NCBI RefSeq assembly: GCF_004345735.1
Contig: NZ_SLXL01000002.1
Location: 186,001-250,000 of the forward strand
DNA: 64,000 bases
Direction: 5' to 3'
Source of the DNA: Rhodovulum adriaticum
GTDB lineage: Bacteria > Pseudomonadota > Alphaproteobacteria > Rhodobacterales > Rhodobacteraceae
The translations under genes were made by a program, and so were the position numbers. Positions 32,884 through 39,944 of this stretch are shown piece after piece; position 1 is the stretch's first letter; each line of letters begins with the position of its first letter. Below the pieces are notes generated by a model that saw only the letters and a list, made by a program, of their open reading frames with translations, was not told the DNA's origin and made no database searches.

Positions 32884-34707
32884 ATGTGCGGAATCGTTGG
32901 CGTCCTGGGCGATCACGAGGCAGCCCCGATCCTGGTTCAGGCGCTGGCGCGACTGGAATACCGCGGCTATGACAGCGCCGGGATCGCCACGGTCAGCGGC
33001 GGCCAGCTGGACCGCCGCCGCGCCGTGGGCAAGCTGGTCAACCTGTCGGACCTTTTGGTGCACGAGCCGCTGTCGGGCAAGGCGGGGATCGGGCATACCC
33101 GCTGGGCCACCCATGGCGCGCCTACGGTAATCAATGCCCACCCCCACTGTGCCGGGCGCGTCGCGGTCGTGCATAACGGCATCATCGAGAATTTCCGCGC
33201 CCTGCGCGAAGAACTGTCGGCGTGCGGCGCGGGCTTCGAAAGCGATACCGACACCGAAACCGTCGCCCATCTGGCGCAGGCCTACCTGGACGAGGGGATG
33301 ACCCCGCAACAGGCCGCCGAGGCGACGCTGAAACGGCTGGAGGGCGCCTTTGCCCTGCTGTTCCTGTTCGAGGGCGAAGAGGATCTGATGATCGCCGCGC
33401 GCAAGGGCAGCCCGCTGGCCATCGGCTGGGGCGAGGGCGAGATGTTCGTCGGCTCTGACGCGATCGCGCTGGCGCCGATGACAAACCGCATCACCTACCT
33501 GGACGAAGGCGACCGCGCCACCATCACCCGCGCCGGGGCCGAAATCCACGACGCCGCCGGCCACCTGGTGAACCGCCCCGTCAAGACCGTCGAAATCGAC
33601 CTGGCCCGCGCGGAAAAGGGCGGGCACAAGCATTTCATGGCCAAGGAAATCGCCGAGCAACCCACCGTGCTGGGCGAGGCGCTGCGCCACTACGTCACCG
33701 ATGACGGCAAGACGCTGACCCTGCCCGACGGCGGCATCGATTTCACCGGCATCGACCGGATCAGCATGGTGGCCTGTGGCACGGCCTACTATGCCTGCCT
33801 GACCGCGAAATACTGGGTGGAACAACTGGCCGGCCTGCCGGTGGATGTCGATATCGCCTCTGAATTCCGGTATCGCGAACCGCCGATCGCCAAGGGCACG
33901 CTGGCGATGTTCGTCAGCCAGTCGGGGGAAACCGCCGACACCCTGGCCGCGCTGCGCTATTGCAAGGACCGGGCGGCGCGGATCGTGTCTGTCGTCAACG
34001 TCCCCGAAAGCACCATCGCGCGGGAAAGCGACCTGGCCTTGCCGATCCTCGCCGGGCCAGAGATCGGCGTTGCCTCGACCAAAGCCTTTACCTGCCAGCT
34101 GGCCGTCCTGGCCATCTGCGCGCTGGAGGCCGCCGCGCAGCGCGGGCGGCTGGACGCGGGCGGCCTGGCCCGCCACCTGGACGACCTGATGACGGTTCCG
34201 GGCCGGATGAACGCAGCGCTGGCGCTGGAAAACGACATCACGGCCGCCGCGCTGGACCTGGCCGAAACCGAGGACGTGCTGTTCCTGGGCCGGGGCGCGA
34301 TGTTCGCACTGGCGCTGGAGGGCGCGCTGAAGCTGAAGGAAATCAGCTACATCCATGCAGAAGGCTATGCCAGCGGCGAGCTGAAGCACGGCCCCATCGC
34401 GCTGGTGGATCAGACCGTGCCGGTGGTGGTCTGCGCGCCCTATGACATGCTGTTCGACAAGACCGTGTCCAACATGCAAGAGGTCATGGCCCGTGGCGGC
34501 AAGGTGCTGCTGATCACCGATGCGCGCGGCGCGGCAGAGGCCGGGTCGGACACCTGGCGCACGCTGGTCATGCCAGAGGCGCCCGATCCCTTCGCCCCGA
34601 TCCTGTACGCGGTGCCGCTGCAACTGCTGGCCTATCATACAGCCGTGGCCAAGGGGACCGACGTGGACCAGCCCCGCAACCTGGCGAAATCCGTCACCGT
34701 GGAATGA
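32884..34707 (+). CDS. glmS: Glutamine--fructose-6-phosphate aminotransferase (isomerizing)
   Basis: A 607-residue enzyme. The N-terminal Ntn glutaminase begins MCGIVGVLG, with the nucleophilic Cys2 after Met removal. Two SIS domains follow, with VACGTAYYACLTAKYWVEQ, FVSQSGETADTLAALRYCK and the C-terminal DQPRNLAKSVTVE that closes the active site. It makes glucosamine-6-phosphate for GlmM/GlmU. The gap from glmU is only three bases, so no room exists for a glmS ribozyme. The last bases overlap the next gene as ATGA. Confidence 0.97.
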   Translation: MCGIVGVLGDHEAAPILVQALARLEYRGYDSAGIATVSGGQLDRRRAVGKLVNLSDLLVHEPLSGKAGIGHTRWATHGAPTVINAHPHCAGRVAVVHNGIIENFRALREELSACGAGFESDTDTETVAHLAQAYLDEGMTPQQAAEATLKRLEGAFALLFLFEGEEDLMIAARKGSPLAIGWGEGEMFVGSDAIALAPMTNRITYLDEGDRATITRAGAEIHDAAGHLVNRPVKTVEIDLARAEKGGHKHFMAKEIAEQPTVLGEALRHYVTDDGKTLTLPDGGIDFTGIDRISMVACGTAYYACLTAKYWVEQLAGLPVDVDIASEFRYREPPIAKGTLAMFVSQSGETADTLAALRYCKDRAARIVSVVNVPESTIARESDLALPILAGPEIGVASTKAFTCQLAVLAICALEAAAQRGRLDAGGLARHLDDLMTVPGRMNAALALENDITAAALDLAETEDVLFLGRGAMFALALEGALKLKEISYIHAEGYASGELKHGPIALVDQTVPVVVCAPYDMLFDKTVSNMQEVMARGGKVLLITDARGAAEAGSDTWRTLVMPEAPDPFAPILYAVPLQLLAYHTAVAKGTDVDQPRNLAKSVTVE

Positions 34708-35384
34708 CGCCCGAGGCGGCCCTTGCGGCGTTGCGCGCCCATGCGGATGCGGCCAAGGCCGCGGATATGGCTGCCTATCACAAGGTGCCCCGCGCCTATC
34801 TGGGCGTTGCGAACCCGGTGATCGACGATCTGGCGCGGGACTGGCGGCAGACCCTTGCCCTGGACGCGCGGCTGGCCCTGGCCGCGGGGCTGTGGCGCAC
34901 GGATATCCACGAGGCCCGCATCGCCGCGGCCAAGCTGCTGACCCAGGCGCGCATCCGCCCCACGGACGCGGAGGCATGGCACCTGCTCGCCGGTTGGGTG
35001 CCCGATTTCGACGGCTGGGCCATTGCCGACGCCGTGTCCATCGCCGGGCAGAAACGCCTGGTGGCCGACCCCGCCCGGCTGGACGAACTCGCGGACTGGA
35101 CGACATCGCCCCATATGTGGACCCGCCGCGCAACCCTGGTGATGACCCTGCCCTGGGCCAAGATGGTCCACCCCAAACCCGCCGACCTGGAGGTGCGCGA
35201 GCGCGTGCTGGGCTGGGCCGCAGGTTATGTGCCTGAGCGCGACTGGTTCATGCAAAAGGCCGTGGCCTGGTGGCTGCGCGACCTGTCCAAACGCGACCCC
35301 GACCGGGTGCGCACATTCCTGGCCGAACACGGCGACCGAATGAAACCCTTTGCCCGGAAAGAGGCGGCGCGGTTGATGGGGTGA
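34704..35384 (+). CDS. DNA alkylation repair (AlkD-like) HEAT-repeat protein
   Basis: A 226-residue all-helical protein of the AlkC/AlkD superfamily, which excises or recognises bulky or positively charged alkylated bases without base flipping. The HEAT-like helices are evident, including WRTDIHEARIAAAKLL, DNWAIADAVS-like DGWAIADAVSIAGQK and RRATLVMTLPWAK; WAAGYVPERDWFMQKAVAWWLRDL near the C-terminus is characteristic. It overlaps glmS by four bases, giving an unexpected link of a repair gene with the amino-sugar operon. Accessory low-GC DNA begins directly after it. Confidence 0.87.
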   Translation: MTPEAALAALRAHADAAKAADMAAYHKVPRAYLGVANPVIDDLARDWRQTLALDARLALAAGLWRTDIHEARIAAAKLLTQARIRPTDAEAWHLLAGWVPDFDGWAIADAVSIAGQKRLVADPARLDELADWTTSPHMWTRRATLVMTLPWAKMVHPKPADLEVRERVLGWAAGYVPERDWFMQKAVAWWLRDLSKRDPDRVRTFLAEHGDRMKPFARKEAARLMG

Positions 35385-35520
35385 GGGGCGGCGGGGTAGA
35401 GTTGCTGCCGGAGATGTTGGAAGCTGTGCTCGGCAAGAATGGCAACAAGGCGCAGGAAGCGGGGTTTGCAAATTGTCGAGAGCGGGCCAGAGCAACCACT
35501 CGGCATATTGTTTCTATGCA

Positions 35521-35532
35521 GCGGGTGCAGCG
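35521..35532 (+). repeat. 12-bp direct repeat, left copy, flanking the accessory segment
   Basis: GCGGGTGCAGCG occurs here and again at 38233-38244, near the two edges of the lower-GC segment that holds the interrupted nuclease gene. Bases just after both copies are also similar (CAAACT and AACT). It might be a recombination scar or the remains of a dispersed intergenic sequence. A 12-mer of this composition can recur by chance. Confidence 0.4.
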
Positions 35533-36584
35533 CAAACTGCCAGCATTCGAATTGGCAAAAAACCACCAAGGAAAAACAAGCCAAGCCACCCGAATTACAA
35601 ATAAAAATTCAAAACACCTCAATCACTATAGTATAAACTTTTCCGAAATATTGGCCTCGCCTCTTTTGCTTCTTGAACAAATCCACCACCGAAGCCTCTG
35701 CGCAAATGTTGATTTCCATTGAACTCTATGCCGCCTCCGGCCTCACCCCGACGAGAAAGAAAACCAAGTAACTCCAACTTCTCTTTAATGCCCAGCGTTC
35801 TGTACCGAAGAATAGTTGCGCCCAAAATACAGCAAGCGCCGAGCTTTCCATTAAGGTCAGAACCAATCACTGCATTTTCCATACTCAGCGCATTTTGATA
35901 CCCATCCTGCCTCTGCAAGTTTACCACCTCACCGTTATTGCAGCTTACTGACAAGAAACCATGCGTTAGGCTGTTTGAAAACTCAATTTGAAATACCTGC
36001 GGAGCTCCAAATTCAATTTCAAGCCTTGCTTCAATTTGACGCCCAGCTGCATCCAAAATTTTTACATAAGCGGAACCTGATACAACAATAGAAACTCTAT
36101 TTTCTCTCTTTCCGCCAATATCTATTAAATATGCACAATCATGGACTTGATCTGGCGAAATACTAGCCATCACCGTCAAATGCACGCCCTCAGTGCCCTC
36201 ATAAGATTTCCCCACTTTGACATATTGCTTCCGGCTTCTTGCATATGCGTCGCATAGTTTCTCGTATAGTTTATCATAATACATATATCGGATGCGGGGT
36301 TCTCTTTCGGAAATCAGTTCAGTCAAGATTGGCGCATCTCTATCATTAGACGTCCCACATATTAGAAGCCCTGAGGTCGACCTAATATTGCTCATACCCA
36401 GAATGCCGCATACGGCTTGTCGAGCATCAAAATTGGCACGGATGGATTTAACGTATTCACATGTCTGACTCACGTAAGTATCTATGTTTGCGCGCAACTT
36501 TGCCCTATTCCCATCTGCTCTGGCTGTGATGGTTTTCATTTCATCCGGCCGCTTAATTTCAACAACAACAGCTTCTTCACTATC

Positions 36585-36594
36585 ACGCTTCCCG
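36585..36594. repeat. Target-site duplication, left copy (ISAs1 element)
   Basis: ACGCTTCCCG directly borders the left end of the element and is repeated exactly at its right end. Ten base pairs fits the 8-10 bp duplications made by ISAs1-family transposases. Confidence 0.92.
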
Positions 36595-37811
36595 TAGGGG
36601 AATCGCATATGGCCGTGACGCACTGAACGGCATGGCTTGCGGCTGGGGTCACGATGGATTCTGAAGGTGGACTCATCCTCCTGGAGCCCATCACCGTCAT
36701 GCATCTGTTCTTGTCCGCCTTCGAAGATGTCCCCGATCCCCGCGCCGAGAACACGCGACATGACTTGGGTGAGCTGCTGGTCATCGCCTTTGTATCGGTC
36801 CTTTGCGGCGCGACCTCCTGCGCCGAGATGGCGGCCTTCGGGCGCGCAAAGGAAAGCGTTTTCAGGGGTTTCCTCAAGCTCAAGAACGCGGTGCCGTCGC
36901 ATGATACTTTCTCGGCAGTGTTCCGGATGATCGATCCCAAGGCGCTCGATGCCGCCTTCGGGCGCGTGCTGGCCGATGTCGCGCACTCCTTCAGAACGGC
37001 GATGTGATTGCCGTTGACGGCAAGGCCCTCCGCGGGGCCCGCAACGCGGGCGAGAGTGCCCGGACGCGGATGATGGTCTCGGCCTATGCGGCGCGGCTGC
37101 GCCTGACGCTCGCCAGCGTGCCGGCCGATCGGGGTACGGAACTGGAGGCTGCGATCGAAGCGCTTGGCCTGATCGCGCTCAGGGGGAAGGTGGTGACCGC
37201 CGATGCCCTGCACTGCAATCGCCGTACGGTTGCCGCAATCAACGCGGGCGGCGGTGACTGGTGCCTTGCGCTCAAGGCCAACCAGGACTCGCTCCTGTCG
37301 GATGCGCGGGCCAGCTTCGGGGCTGAGCCAGACGCGCACCCAAGCGCGCTTTCCGAGGATGTCGGCCACGGCCGGACGGAAACCCGAAAGGCGACCGTCG
37401 TTTCGAGCAAGGCTCTTGCAGAGCATCATGAATTCCCCGGCCTAAAGGCTTTTGGCCGTGTCGAGGCCACCCGTAAAACAGCCGAGGGCACAACTTCGGA
37501 GACGAGGTACTTCGCGCTTTCCTGGGTGCCGACACCGGAGGTCCTGCTGGCGACCGTACGCGCCCACTGGGCCATTGAGAACAGCCTGCACTGGCAGCTG
37601 GACGTCTCTTTCCGCGAAGACGCCGCGCGCAACCGGAAGGATAACGGTCCGGGCAACATCGCCATCCTGCGCCGCCGTGCTCTCGACGTCATGCGCAGGG
37701 ACACGTCGAAGGGCTCGCTTTCCATCAAGCTCAAGCGAGCAGGCTGGGATGATGACTTCCTTCGCAACGTTCTCAATGGTTTAGCCGCGTGAGCCATATG
37801 CGATTGCCCTG
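36595..37811 (+). mobile_element. ISAs1-family insertion sequence, 1217 bp
   Basis: The ends are a 19-bp imperfect inverted repeat: TAGGGGAATCGCATATGGC at the left and the complement of CAGGGCAATCGCATATGGC at the right, differing at two positions. It is bordered by the perfect 10-bp duplication ACGCTTCCCG. It carries one transposase split by a frameshift and no passenger gene. Its GC content is higher than the gene it interrupts. The intact duplication implies a recent insertion with no later rearrangement. Confidence 0.95.
36654..37792 (+). pseudogene. ISAs1-family transposase, frameshifted into two frames
   Basis: The first frame (36654-37007, 117 residues) carries the N-terminal part, with DVPDPRAENTRHDLGELLVIAF and NAVPSHDTFSAVFRMID. 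The second frame (GTG at 37004 to 37792, 262 residues) carries the catalytic DDE region: VIAVDGKALRG, VVTADALHCNRR, and HWAIENSLHWQLDVSFRED with the glutamate. Full ISAs1 transposases are one protein of roughly 370 residues. The two frames overlap by four bases, and joining them needs a -1 shift. No canonical slippery heptamer is visible at the junction, so mutation is more likely than programmed frameshifting. Confidence 0.9.
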
Positions 37812-37821
37812 ACGCTTCCCG
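37812..37821. repeat. Target-site duplication, right copy (ISAs1 element)
   Basis: An exact copy of ACGCTTCCCG, immediately after the right terminal repeat. Together with the left copy it fixes the element boundaries and the insertion point inside codons 73-75 of the nuclease gene. Confidence 0.92.
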
Positions 37822-38036
37822 CATATGAAATCCGGCATGGGTGTAAAATGGCGCTCTTTATCAAATGGCAATTTGTTTCCAGACTGAGCCTCAAAGGGAG
37901 CGCAACAGTCAAAACCCAGGATGTCAAAAACGAAAGGATTTCTTTCAAAAAACGCTTGATACTCTTTCTCGGGAAGGTTGGGTTGACTTAACAAGGAAAA
38001 GAGTTCACTTATAGATTTCCAGATTTCGCTGTCCAA

Positions 38037-38339
38037 ATGACGTTCTCTTTCGCTAGATTATTGGCAATCATCTCATTAATTCCGCACAGGCAGGTATTGT
38101 TTAAAAAATAGCAGCACCGTACAGTCGGCGCAAGTGAACCAAGAGGCCAAATCCGAGAAACATTATGGCAGCGCAGCGCTCGTTTTCCCATATTTCGAAA
38201 TGTCAACAAGGCAGTCACGCTGCATTTAGCTCGCGGGTGCAGCGAACTCCCGCTCCCCACCCAACCTGAAAAATACCCATTCGCCCACCGCTTCACCTAC
38301 CCTCCTCACCTCCCACGGGACAAACGACAGCTCCACCCC
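38037..38339. other. Gene-free flank of the accessory segment
   Basis: Between the interrupted nuclease gene and the acyl-CoA synthetase stop lie 303 bases without a convincing gene. They hold the presumed promoter region of the nuclease, with AT-rich sequence around 38080-38115 including TTTAAAAAATAG. The right copy of the 12-bp repeat (38233-38244) is also here, along with a fragment AAAAATACCCAT (about 38270-38281) resembling the right half of the dispersed palindromic element. A minus-strand frame across most of it has no recognisable protein character. Confidence 0.55.
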
Positions 38340-39944
38340 TCACCCGCCCCGCAATTCCCGTCGCATGATCTTGCCCGTTGCGGTCATCGGCAGGCTGTCG
38401 GCGCGGATCACCTTGCGGGGGGCGACGTGGGGGCTGACGTGATCGCGCACGCGCTGGATCAGGGTGGGCTCCAGCCCCTCCCACGCCGCACCGTCGCGCA
38501 GCACCACGTGGGCCACGACGATCTGGGTGCGCACGGGGTCGGGTTCGCCCACCACTGCGGCCATCAGCACGTCGGGATGGGCGGCCAGGCAATTCTCGAT
38601 CTCGGTCGGGCCGATCCGGTAGCCAGCCGAGGTGATGACATCGTCGTCGCGCGCGACATAGGTGAAGTGCCCCGCCGCATCGCAGACCCCCAGATCGCCC
38701 GTGCGCATCCAATCGCCCGCGAACTTGTCGGCGGTCTTGTCGGGCAGGCCAAGGTATTCCAGGAACATCGGGGCCGCGCCGCGGCGCACTGCAATCTCGC
38801 CCACCTCGCCGGGCGGCAGGGGGGTGCCGTCCGGCCCGATCACCGCCACATCAAAACCGGGCGTTGCCCGCCCCATCGCACCGGGCGGCGCGTCCATCAG
38901 TTCGGGAACGCAGGTGACGACCAGGTTGCATTCGGTCTGGCCGTAGAATTCGCAGATGTTCAGCCCCAGCGCCTGCCGCCCCCAGTCCAGCAGATCGGCC
39001 CCCAGGCTTTCCCCGCCCGACCCGACGCTGCGCAAGGACACGCCGGGGGGCACCGGCACCTCGCGCATCAGCTTCAGCGCGGTGGGTGGCAGGAACAGGT
39101 TGCGGACCTGCAGCCGGTCGATCAGCGCCCAGGCCTGCCCGGCATCGAACTTGCGCATCCGGCAGGCAACCAGCGGGATGCCGTAGTAAAGGCAGGGCAT
39201 CGCCATGTCCATCAGCCCACCGATCCAGGCCCAGTCGGCCGGGGTCCAGCCGCAATCGCCGGGCCGGGGCGTGCCGCGATGATGCAATTCGAAGGACGGC
39301 AGATGCCCGATCAGGAAGCGGTGGGCATGCAAGACCCCCTTGGGCGGGCCGGTGGTGCCAGATGTATAGATCAGCACCGCCGGATCCTCGGCCCCGGTGT
39401 CGCGGGGGGCGGGGGTCGGGTCGGCAGCGGCGATTTCCGCCCAGAAATCCCGCGCCGGGCCGCCATCCACCGACAGCACGTCGCGCAGGGCGGGCAGGCG
39501 GTCGCGCAGGCCCGCCAGCTTGGCCGCGCCCTCGGCGTCCGTCACGACCAGTTTCGTGCCGCTGTCGGCCAACCGGTATTCCAACGCGTCGGGGCCGAAC
39601 AGGGTAAAGAGCGGCAGGCCCACGGCCCCCAGCTTCATCGCGGCGAAATGGGCGATCAGCACCGCGGGCGCCTGCGGCAGCAGCACCGCCACCCGGTCGC
39701 CCGTCCCCACGCCCGCCGCCGCGAACACGCTGGCCAGCCGGTCCGAGGCATCGCGCAACGCGCCGTAGGTCCAGCCCCGGTCGCCATCGCTGGCGTCGAT
39801 CACCGCCACGCGCTCCGGCGCCTCGGCGGCCCAGTCATCGCAACAGGCCGCCGCGATGTTGAAACGGTCGGGGATGTCCCAGCGAAAGCTGGCGCGCATC
39901 GCATCCCAATCGCGCTGGTCAGGGATCAGCCTGCGGTCCTTCAT
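38340..39944 (-). CDS. AMP-dependent acyl-CoA synthetase
   Basis: A 534-residue adenylate-forming ligase. The phosphate loop is LIYTSGTTGPPKGVLHAH (residues about 189-206). Later motifs are YGQTECN, WMRTGDLGVCDAAGHFTYVARDDDVITSAGYRIGP (hinge) and a C-terminal lysine in TATGKIMRREL. It activates a carboxylic acid to its CoA thioester; medium-chain or branched acids are likely, but chain length cannot be read from the sequence. GGGAGGAGG precedes the start. The palindrome 19-36 bases upstream is almost the same as that before liuA, pointing to joint control with leucine/isovalerate breakdown. Confidence 0.9.
   Translation of the reverse strand: MKDRRLIPDQRDWDAMRASFRWDIPDRFNIAAACCDDWAAEAPERVAVIDASDGDRGWTYGALRDASDRLASVFAAAGVGTGDRVAVLLPQAPAVLIAHFAAMKLGAVGLPLFTLFGPDALEYRLADSGTKLVVTDAEGAAKLAGLRDRLPALRDVLSVDGGPARDFWAEIAAADPTPAPRDTGAEDPAVLIYTSGTTGPPKGVLHAHRFLIGHLPSFELHHRGTPRPGDCGWTPADWAWIGGLMDMAMPCLYYGIPLVACRMRKFDAGQAWALIDRLQVRNLFLPPTALKLMREVPVPPGVSLRSVGSGGESLGADLLDWGRQALGLNICEFYGQTECNLVVTCVPELMDAPPGAMGRATPGFDVAVIGPDGTPLPPGEVGEIAVRRGAAPMFLEYLGLPDKTADKFAGDWMRTGDLGVCDAAGHFTYVARDDDVITSAGYRIGPTEIENCLAAHPDVLMAAVVGEPDPVRTQIVVAHVVLRDGAAWEGLEPTLIQRVRDHVSPHVAPRKVIRADSLPMTATGKIMRRELRGG

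Follow-up and report, generated by a model that had tools for sequence, protein, structure and literature searches.

The locus described here raises the question of whether a Shedu-type nuclease can carry its additional domain behind the catalytic core and, if so, what kind of domain that is. It lies in a 64,000-nucleotide stretch of the Rhodovulum adriaticum genome (hereafter the window, to which all plain coordinates refer), in which a first-pass annotation had read the two flanks of an insertion sequence as a single protein with a DUF4263/Shedu nuclease in its N-terminal half and a LamG/concanavalin-like domain in its C-terminal half. Our preferred reading, to which we assign a probability of roughly 0.6, is that a Shedu-type nuclease with a C-terminal β-rich control module was acquired and was then inactivated at this site by an ISAs1 element.

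The interrupted gene and its insertion sequence

The split gene as a whole spans 38036–35619 on the minus strand. Its 5′ piece (38036–37812, minus strand; 75 codons, residues 1–75) opens with a TTG start, with no ATG between this codon and the in-frame stop that precedes it, and ends immediately after PDFICGKR; it carries the aspartate of the PD-D motif, which is residue 69 in the orthologue described below. The 3′ piece (36594–35619, minus strand; 324 codons at 36593–35622, followed by a stop codon) begins with the GKR codons repeated and continues through E-x-K, Q-x3-Y, the remainder of the nuclease and a C-terminal module of about 190 residues. Neither piece contains an internal stop, and no decay was seen in them apart from the insertion. 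The coordinates that the first-pass annotation had given for the gene, the element and the repeats were correct, and the motifs that it had picked out (EYQAFFERNP, PDF, VEIK, Q-x3-Y and LRYRxL...LLGFL) are all present in the sequence. We analysed the two pieces separately.

The insert (36595–37811, plus strand; 1,217 bp) is an ISAs1-family insertion sequence. It combines a match to the ISAs1 transposase model (NCBIfam NF033564) with inverted ends of 18 nt (36596–36613 and 37793–37810, 94% complementary) and a short target-site duplication, a 10-bp direct repeat whose left copy occupies 36585–36594 and whose right copy occupies 37812–37821; the earlier description of the gene as split by such an element thus holds. 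The second transposase frame (37004–37792, plus strand; DDE_Tnp_1) aligned to model positions 77–313 with 220 bits (E = 4.2e-65), above the cut-off of 70 bits, and the first (36654–37007, plus strand; DDE_Tnp_1-associated) aligned to positions 2–71 with 63 bits (E = 2.5e-17), below it. Whereas the family model spans the transposase as one protein, the transposase here (36654–37792) is encoded in two frames that overlap by 4 bases, reflecting either an inactivating frameshift or coupled translation, and the element may therefore be inactive. A search of the host genome for the element returned one match, with 40 of 60 first-look candidates scored, and plasmids yielded no match.

The element entered the gene between Asp 69 and Glu 84/Lys 86 (orthologue numbering), that is, between PD-D and E-x-K, so that each piece retains only part of the active site. 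With its active site divided in this way, the SduA-like gene is almost certainly dead in this genome, a pseudogene.

An intact orthologue was found in Alkalilacustris brevis (Rhodobacterales), where an uninterrupted gene in the same frame, also starting with TTG, encodes 399 residues that are 75% identical to the N-terminal piece and 68% identical to the C-terminal piece. Over the 323 codons compared between the C-terminal piece and this gene, 173 of the 303 base differences fall at third codon positions, with pN of 0.19, pS of 0.72 and a dN/dS of about 0.09; over the 75 codons of the N-terminal piece, pS is saturated. An intact orthologue in the same frame, together with the third-position differences and this dN/dS, excludes a chance reading frame, and by these codon comparisons the split gene is a real protein under purifying selection.

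The nuclease half and the order of parts

We searched the A. brevis orthologue and a second intact homologue against the Pfam family PF14082 (SduA_C/DUF4263), which has a curated cut-off of 27 bits. The second homologue, a protein of 424 residues, comes from genome G848 in another genus of the window's family and is colinear with the others from end to end. Both scored above the cut-off, with 37.1 bits (E = 4.5e-9, residues 22–181 of 399) for the A. brevis protein and 44.4 bits (E = 2.5e-11, residues 22–182 of 424) for the G848 protein, whereas the broken pieces in the window fell below it (12.5 bits for the N-terminal piece, no match for the C-terminal piece). These two matches show the N-terminal half to be, as far as sequence can tell, a Shedu-type nuclease with its catalytic motifs, in agreement with what had been proposed from the motifs. 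With the PADLOC SduA models, the best E values for the window pieces were 0.0025 (5′ piece) and 0.012 (3′ piece); the best PADLOC scores, 3.5e-7 (locus L014) and 0.015 (the A. brevis orthologue), were weak.

The catalytic residues were compared in an alignment of nine domains, namely those of the two intact homologues and seven more SduA_C domains taken from the same class as the window; of the 9 genomes with an SduA_C match, L012 and L013 lie below the family cut-off and were left out of this alignment and of the architecture count given below. All nine domains carry the PD-D Asp, the E-x-K Glu and the Q-x3-Y Gln, and five, both homologues among them, also have the E-x-K Lys. In hhalign comparisons with the seven same-class SduA_C domains, the nuclease part gave a probability of 96.9 (P = 1.3e-10) and the C-terminal part a probability of 0.1. 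The nine-domain profile retrieved from the PDB the solved Shedu structures 8ti8, 8ps4 and 8ti9 (E = 4e-25 to 1.3e-23), plus one chance match. Searched alone, the A. brevis orthologue retrieved nothing from the PDB at E values up to 10, and the sole match of a three-row full-length profile, to a ribosomal protein (E = 0.28), is unrelated. An AlphaFold model of the full-length orthologue built from a three-row alignment had a pLDDT of 33.8 and a pTM of 0.21 and is uninformative for the fold.

Published accounts of type I Shedu proteins place regulatory domains of diverse kinds N-terminal to the nuclease (PMC12409362; PMC12137116; PMC12904381), and the first of them ascribes such domains to type I and names type II without description. 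The proteins studied here share with type I SduA (PF14082; 8ti8, 8ti9, 8ps4) the PD-(D/E)xK family, the order D...E-x-K...Q, the single-gene organization and the patchy occurrence, but differ in the placement of what is added to the nuclease: the match begins at residue 22 of both the 399- and the 424-residue protein, leaving 21 residues before it and 218 (A. brevis) or 242 (G848) after it. In the seven same-class SduA_C proteins, four of which carry over 150 residues N-terminal to the nuclease while the other three are nuclease-only (191–244 aa), the nuclease is followed by 7–32 residues, and in the three solved Shedu sequences the nuclease match stops 12–13 residues before the chain end. An additional C-terminal module, which the first-pass annotation had called unusual, is thus lacking from all the Shedu proteins compared. 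Because the G848 homologue is colinear at 32% identity and belongs to another genus, the alignment shows the nuclease-first, two-part order to be conserved in A. brevis and G848.

The type II class was reportedly defined by Gu et al. in Mol Cell in 2025; it has in common with the present protein that it is a single-protein DUF4263 system, and it may already include the present gene. Among the literature matches listed, judged by title and the opening of the abstract, none dealt with a LamG or concanavalin-like domain in a Shedu protein, a statement that concerns those titles and openings and claims no absence from print.

Surroundings and distribution

The two pieces have GC contents of 42.7% and 44.1%, compared with 63.9% for the insertion sequence and 65.8% for the window, and housekeeping genes lie around them, which bears out the description of a gene standing alone in low-GC DNA. 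They sit in a probably acquired segment of 2,955 bp (35385–38339) between a DNA_alkylation gene (34704–35384) and an AMP-binding gene (38340–39944, minus strand), both named from Pfam. In one congener (G003, locus L072) the same two genes, whose products are 76% (DNA_alkylation) and 86% (AMP-binding) identical to those of the window, lie only 6 bp apart; two further congener loci, judged by eye, have other downstream genes, and the empty-site reading covers these 3 of 8 congener loci (7 other genomes). Given the low GC (43–44% against 66%) and the empty site in G003, the simplest reading of 35385–38339 is that of a single gene gained horizontally and inserted between two housekeeping genes in convergent orientation. 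The empty site comes from one congener, and the segment could instead have been lost in G003.

The acquired segment has no integrase of its own. Its Pfam-annotated neighbours in the window (a DegT aminotransferase, a HAD phosphatase, a DNA alkylation repair protein, an AMP-binding enzyme and two M20 peptidases) are of the housekeeping type, and from their domains we take two further neighbours to be GlmU-like and GlmS-like. The defence-island neighbours that the first-pass annotation had thought worth looking for are absent, with none of the nine genes next to the insertion matching a PADLOC model at 0.001. No Rfam family was found in 35000–39000, and promoter and terminator scans of the region stayed at chance level (promoter-like sites: 3 found, 2.0 expected).

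Direct repeats in the same order flank the acquired segment, one pair of 14 bp (35438–35451 and 38199–38212) and one of 12 bp (35521–35532 and 38233–38244). A dispersed repeat at the segment edges was considered and rejected: a 31-base stretch of the right flank, which holds one of the right-hand repeat copies, occurs once in its own genome and is missing from the other 60 that were searched. With this stretch present in 1 of 61 genomes, both the 12-bp and the 14-bp repeats are probably due to chance.

The A. brevis gene likewise has a GC content of 44% inside a locus of 61% GC. A gene scan of that locus placed a phage integrase (L001 3494–5062) 2.7 kb and a serine resolvase (L001 5783–6490) 1.3 kb from the orthologue, which together suggest a small integrative element. 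Directly upstream of the orthologue is a small ORF (L001 7015–7575) with no Pfam match at 1e-3, presumably resembling a secreted thermonuclease-type protein. The G848 homologue is flanked by a GcrA gene on one side and a radical-SAM gene on the other. Beyond the latter, about 1.8 kb downstream of the homologue, comes a DUF2971 gene (L019 11426–12319, E = 2.1e-12); DUF2971 may be associated with defence.

We looked for further relatives in several collections. A scan of contigs with one genome per species, covering 84,980 species and detecting close relatives only, returned a single relative, that of A. brevis. A whole-genome search with the C-terminal piece as query recovered its own genome only (1 of 195), as did a search of the class (1 of 385); searches of the phylum (2 of 398) and of the family (2 of 394) each recovered its own genome and G848, the four samples overlapping one another. 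Within the genus of G848, the C-terminal module was not found in any of the five other genomes (1 of 6 including G848). Plasmids, phages and viral contigs, the last of these searched by pattern-based scans, yielded no relatives.

The C-terminal module and competing readings

At E values up to 10, no Pfam family, LamG included, matched the C-terminal half, whether the window piece, the A. brevis protein or the G848 protein was used. Against the PDB, the C-terminal profile found nothing credible (best E = 0.37). In PHROGs, the C-terminal halves reached a best E of 0.28, and the whole protein gave E = 0.014 over 27 residues (173–199) with a family without known function.

For profile–profile comparison using hhalign, 15 of the 34 LamG_3 domains listed for related genomes went into a LamG_3 profile, and 11 of the listed Big_9 matches into a control profile. 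With default match states, the three C-terminal halves scored 21.6 against LamG_3 (P = 0.011) and the full-length alignment scored 23.8 (P = 0.01). With match states defined by the first sequence (-M first), the C-terminal halves scored 28.8 (P = 5e-4, probability 31.6), in an alignment that is colinear over 106 columns, covers residues of about 207–318 and ends at an iGSD/iG motif. Under this setting none of 200 column shuffles (maximum 20.5) and none of 200 block shuffles (maximum 22.6) reached 28.8, and the remaining controls gave 11.6 for the reversed query, 14.1 for the reversed target, 8.9 for the nuclease half and 10.4 for the unrelated Big_9 domain. The match rests on the three sequences jointly, none of which shows it alone (single sequences scored 14.9–16.7), and in a leave-one-out comparison all 15 true LamG members scored above it (41–167).

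What the module has in common with Laminin_G_3/ConA-like domains (PF13385) is thus a weak colinear profile match; it differs from true domains in its score and in lying below Pfam detection. We regard the resemblance as a suggestive hint and not as proof. The first-pass proposal of a LamG-like C-terminal half fares accordingly in two ways, gaining from a profile match that exceeds all 400 shuffles and losing from the empty Pfam search and from a score below that of every true member. The module is probably β-rich and, to judge from this profile match, possibly concanavalin/LamG-like. Past the LamG-like stretch, all three proteins keep a tail motif made up of G-x-E-x-N-G, R, G, Q, E and P-I (P0001 residues of about 360–390).

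The chances seem to us evenly balanced that the nuclease is as described and that the C-terminal half is some other domain, an oligomerization or DNA-binding module and not a lectin-like sensor. Such a module would agree with the empty Pfam search, the lack of a sequence relative in the PDB, the PHROGs values, a LamG score far below those of true members and an AlphaFold pLDDT too low to show a fold, as well as with the conservation of the last 40 residues, which lie outside the LamG match; it sits less well with a colinear LamG alignment that beats every shuffled control and with the scores of the reversed query, the reversed target and Big_9. Distinctly less probable in our estimate is a Shedu clade of reversed order in which a cytosolic C-terminal LamG/concanavalin-like domain senses a phage protein or a sugar-decorated phage component in place of a DNA end.

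It is also doubtful, in our view, that the gene encodes an SduA_C-superfamily nuclease with a role outside defence, such as DNA processing or mobile-element maintenance, for which Shedu would be a family label only. The window neighbours without defence-model matches, the weak PADLOC scores, the integrase and resolvase genes near the orthologue and the great rarity of the gene (two of the 394 family genomes, its own being one) speak for such a role. Single-gene defence cargo, however, typically has a patchy occurrence, a low GC content and a cargo-like position and is lost through insertion sequences, and the present gene fits this description. Moreover, the tested family members described in three papers are anti-phage (PMC12137116, PMC12409362, PMC12904381). 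We give very little credence to the idea that the interrupted gene still works, either through pieces that are made separately and reassemble or through precise excision of the element: both pieces are open and undecayed, the frame of the 3′ piece continues into the antisense strand of the insertion sequence to give a frame of 455 aa, and one minus-strand promoter-like site lies inside the element (37776–37749), but the insert separates one half of the active site from the other, promoter-like sites occur at the chance level given above and the element's own transposase is divided between two frames.

We favour the acquisition of a Shedu-type nuclease with a C-terminal control module, followed by its inactivation. 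The intact protein, of about 396–399 residues, would consist of a DUF4263/SduA_C PD-(D/E)xK nuclease (22–181) followed by a module of about 190–218 residues, which, from its position, may stand in for the sensor or DNA-end clamp that type I Shedu proteins carry at the N terminus. This module would restrain the nuclease, bring it to a phage-derived ligand or DNA structure, or do both, and the nuclease, if it acts as its family suggests, would then cut phage DNA. We infer the defence function, the sensing by the C-terminal module and the fold of that module. The jump of ISAs1 between PD-D and E-x-K would have killed the gene here, with intact copies persisting elsewhere, and one may speculate that loss of the gene is favoured if the nuclease is costly.

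In this strain the feature is a pseudogene, and its interest lies in the small clade of nuclease-first Shedu proteins to which it belongs. If a conserved clade has its control domain behind the nuclease, the core shared across Shedu must be controllable from both termini; and if the C-terminal domain, possibly lectin-like, does sense phage, its ligand would be a new trigger of Shedu immunity.
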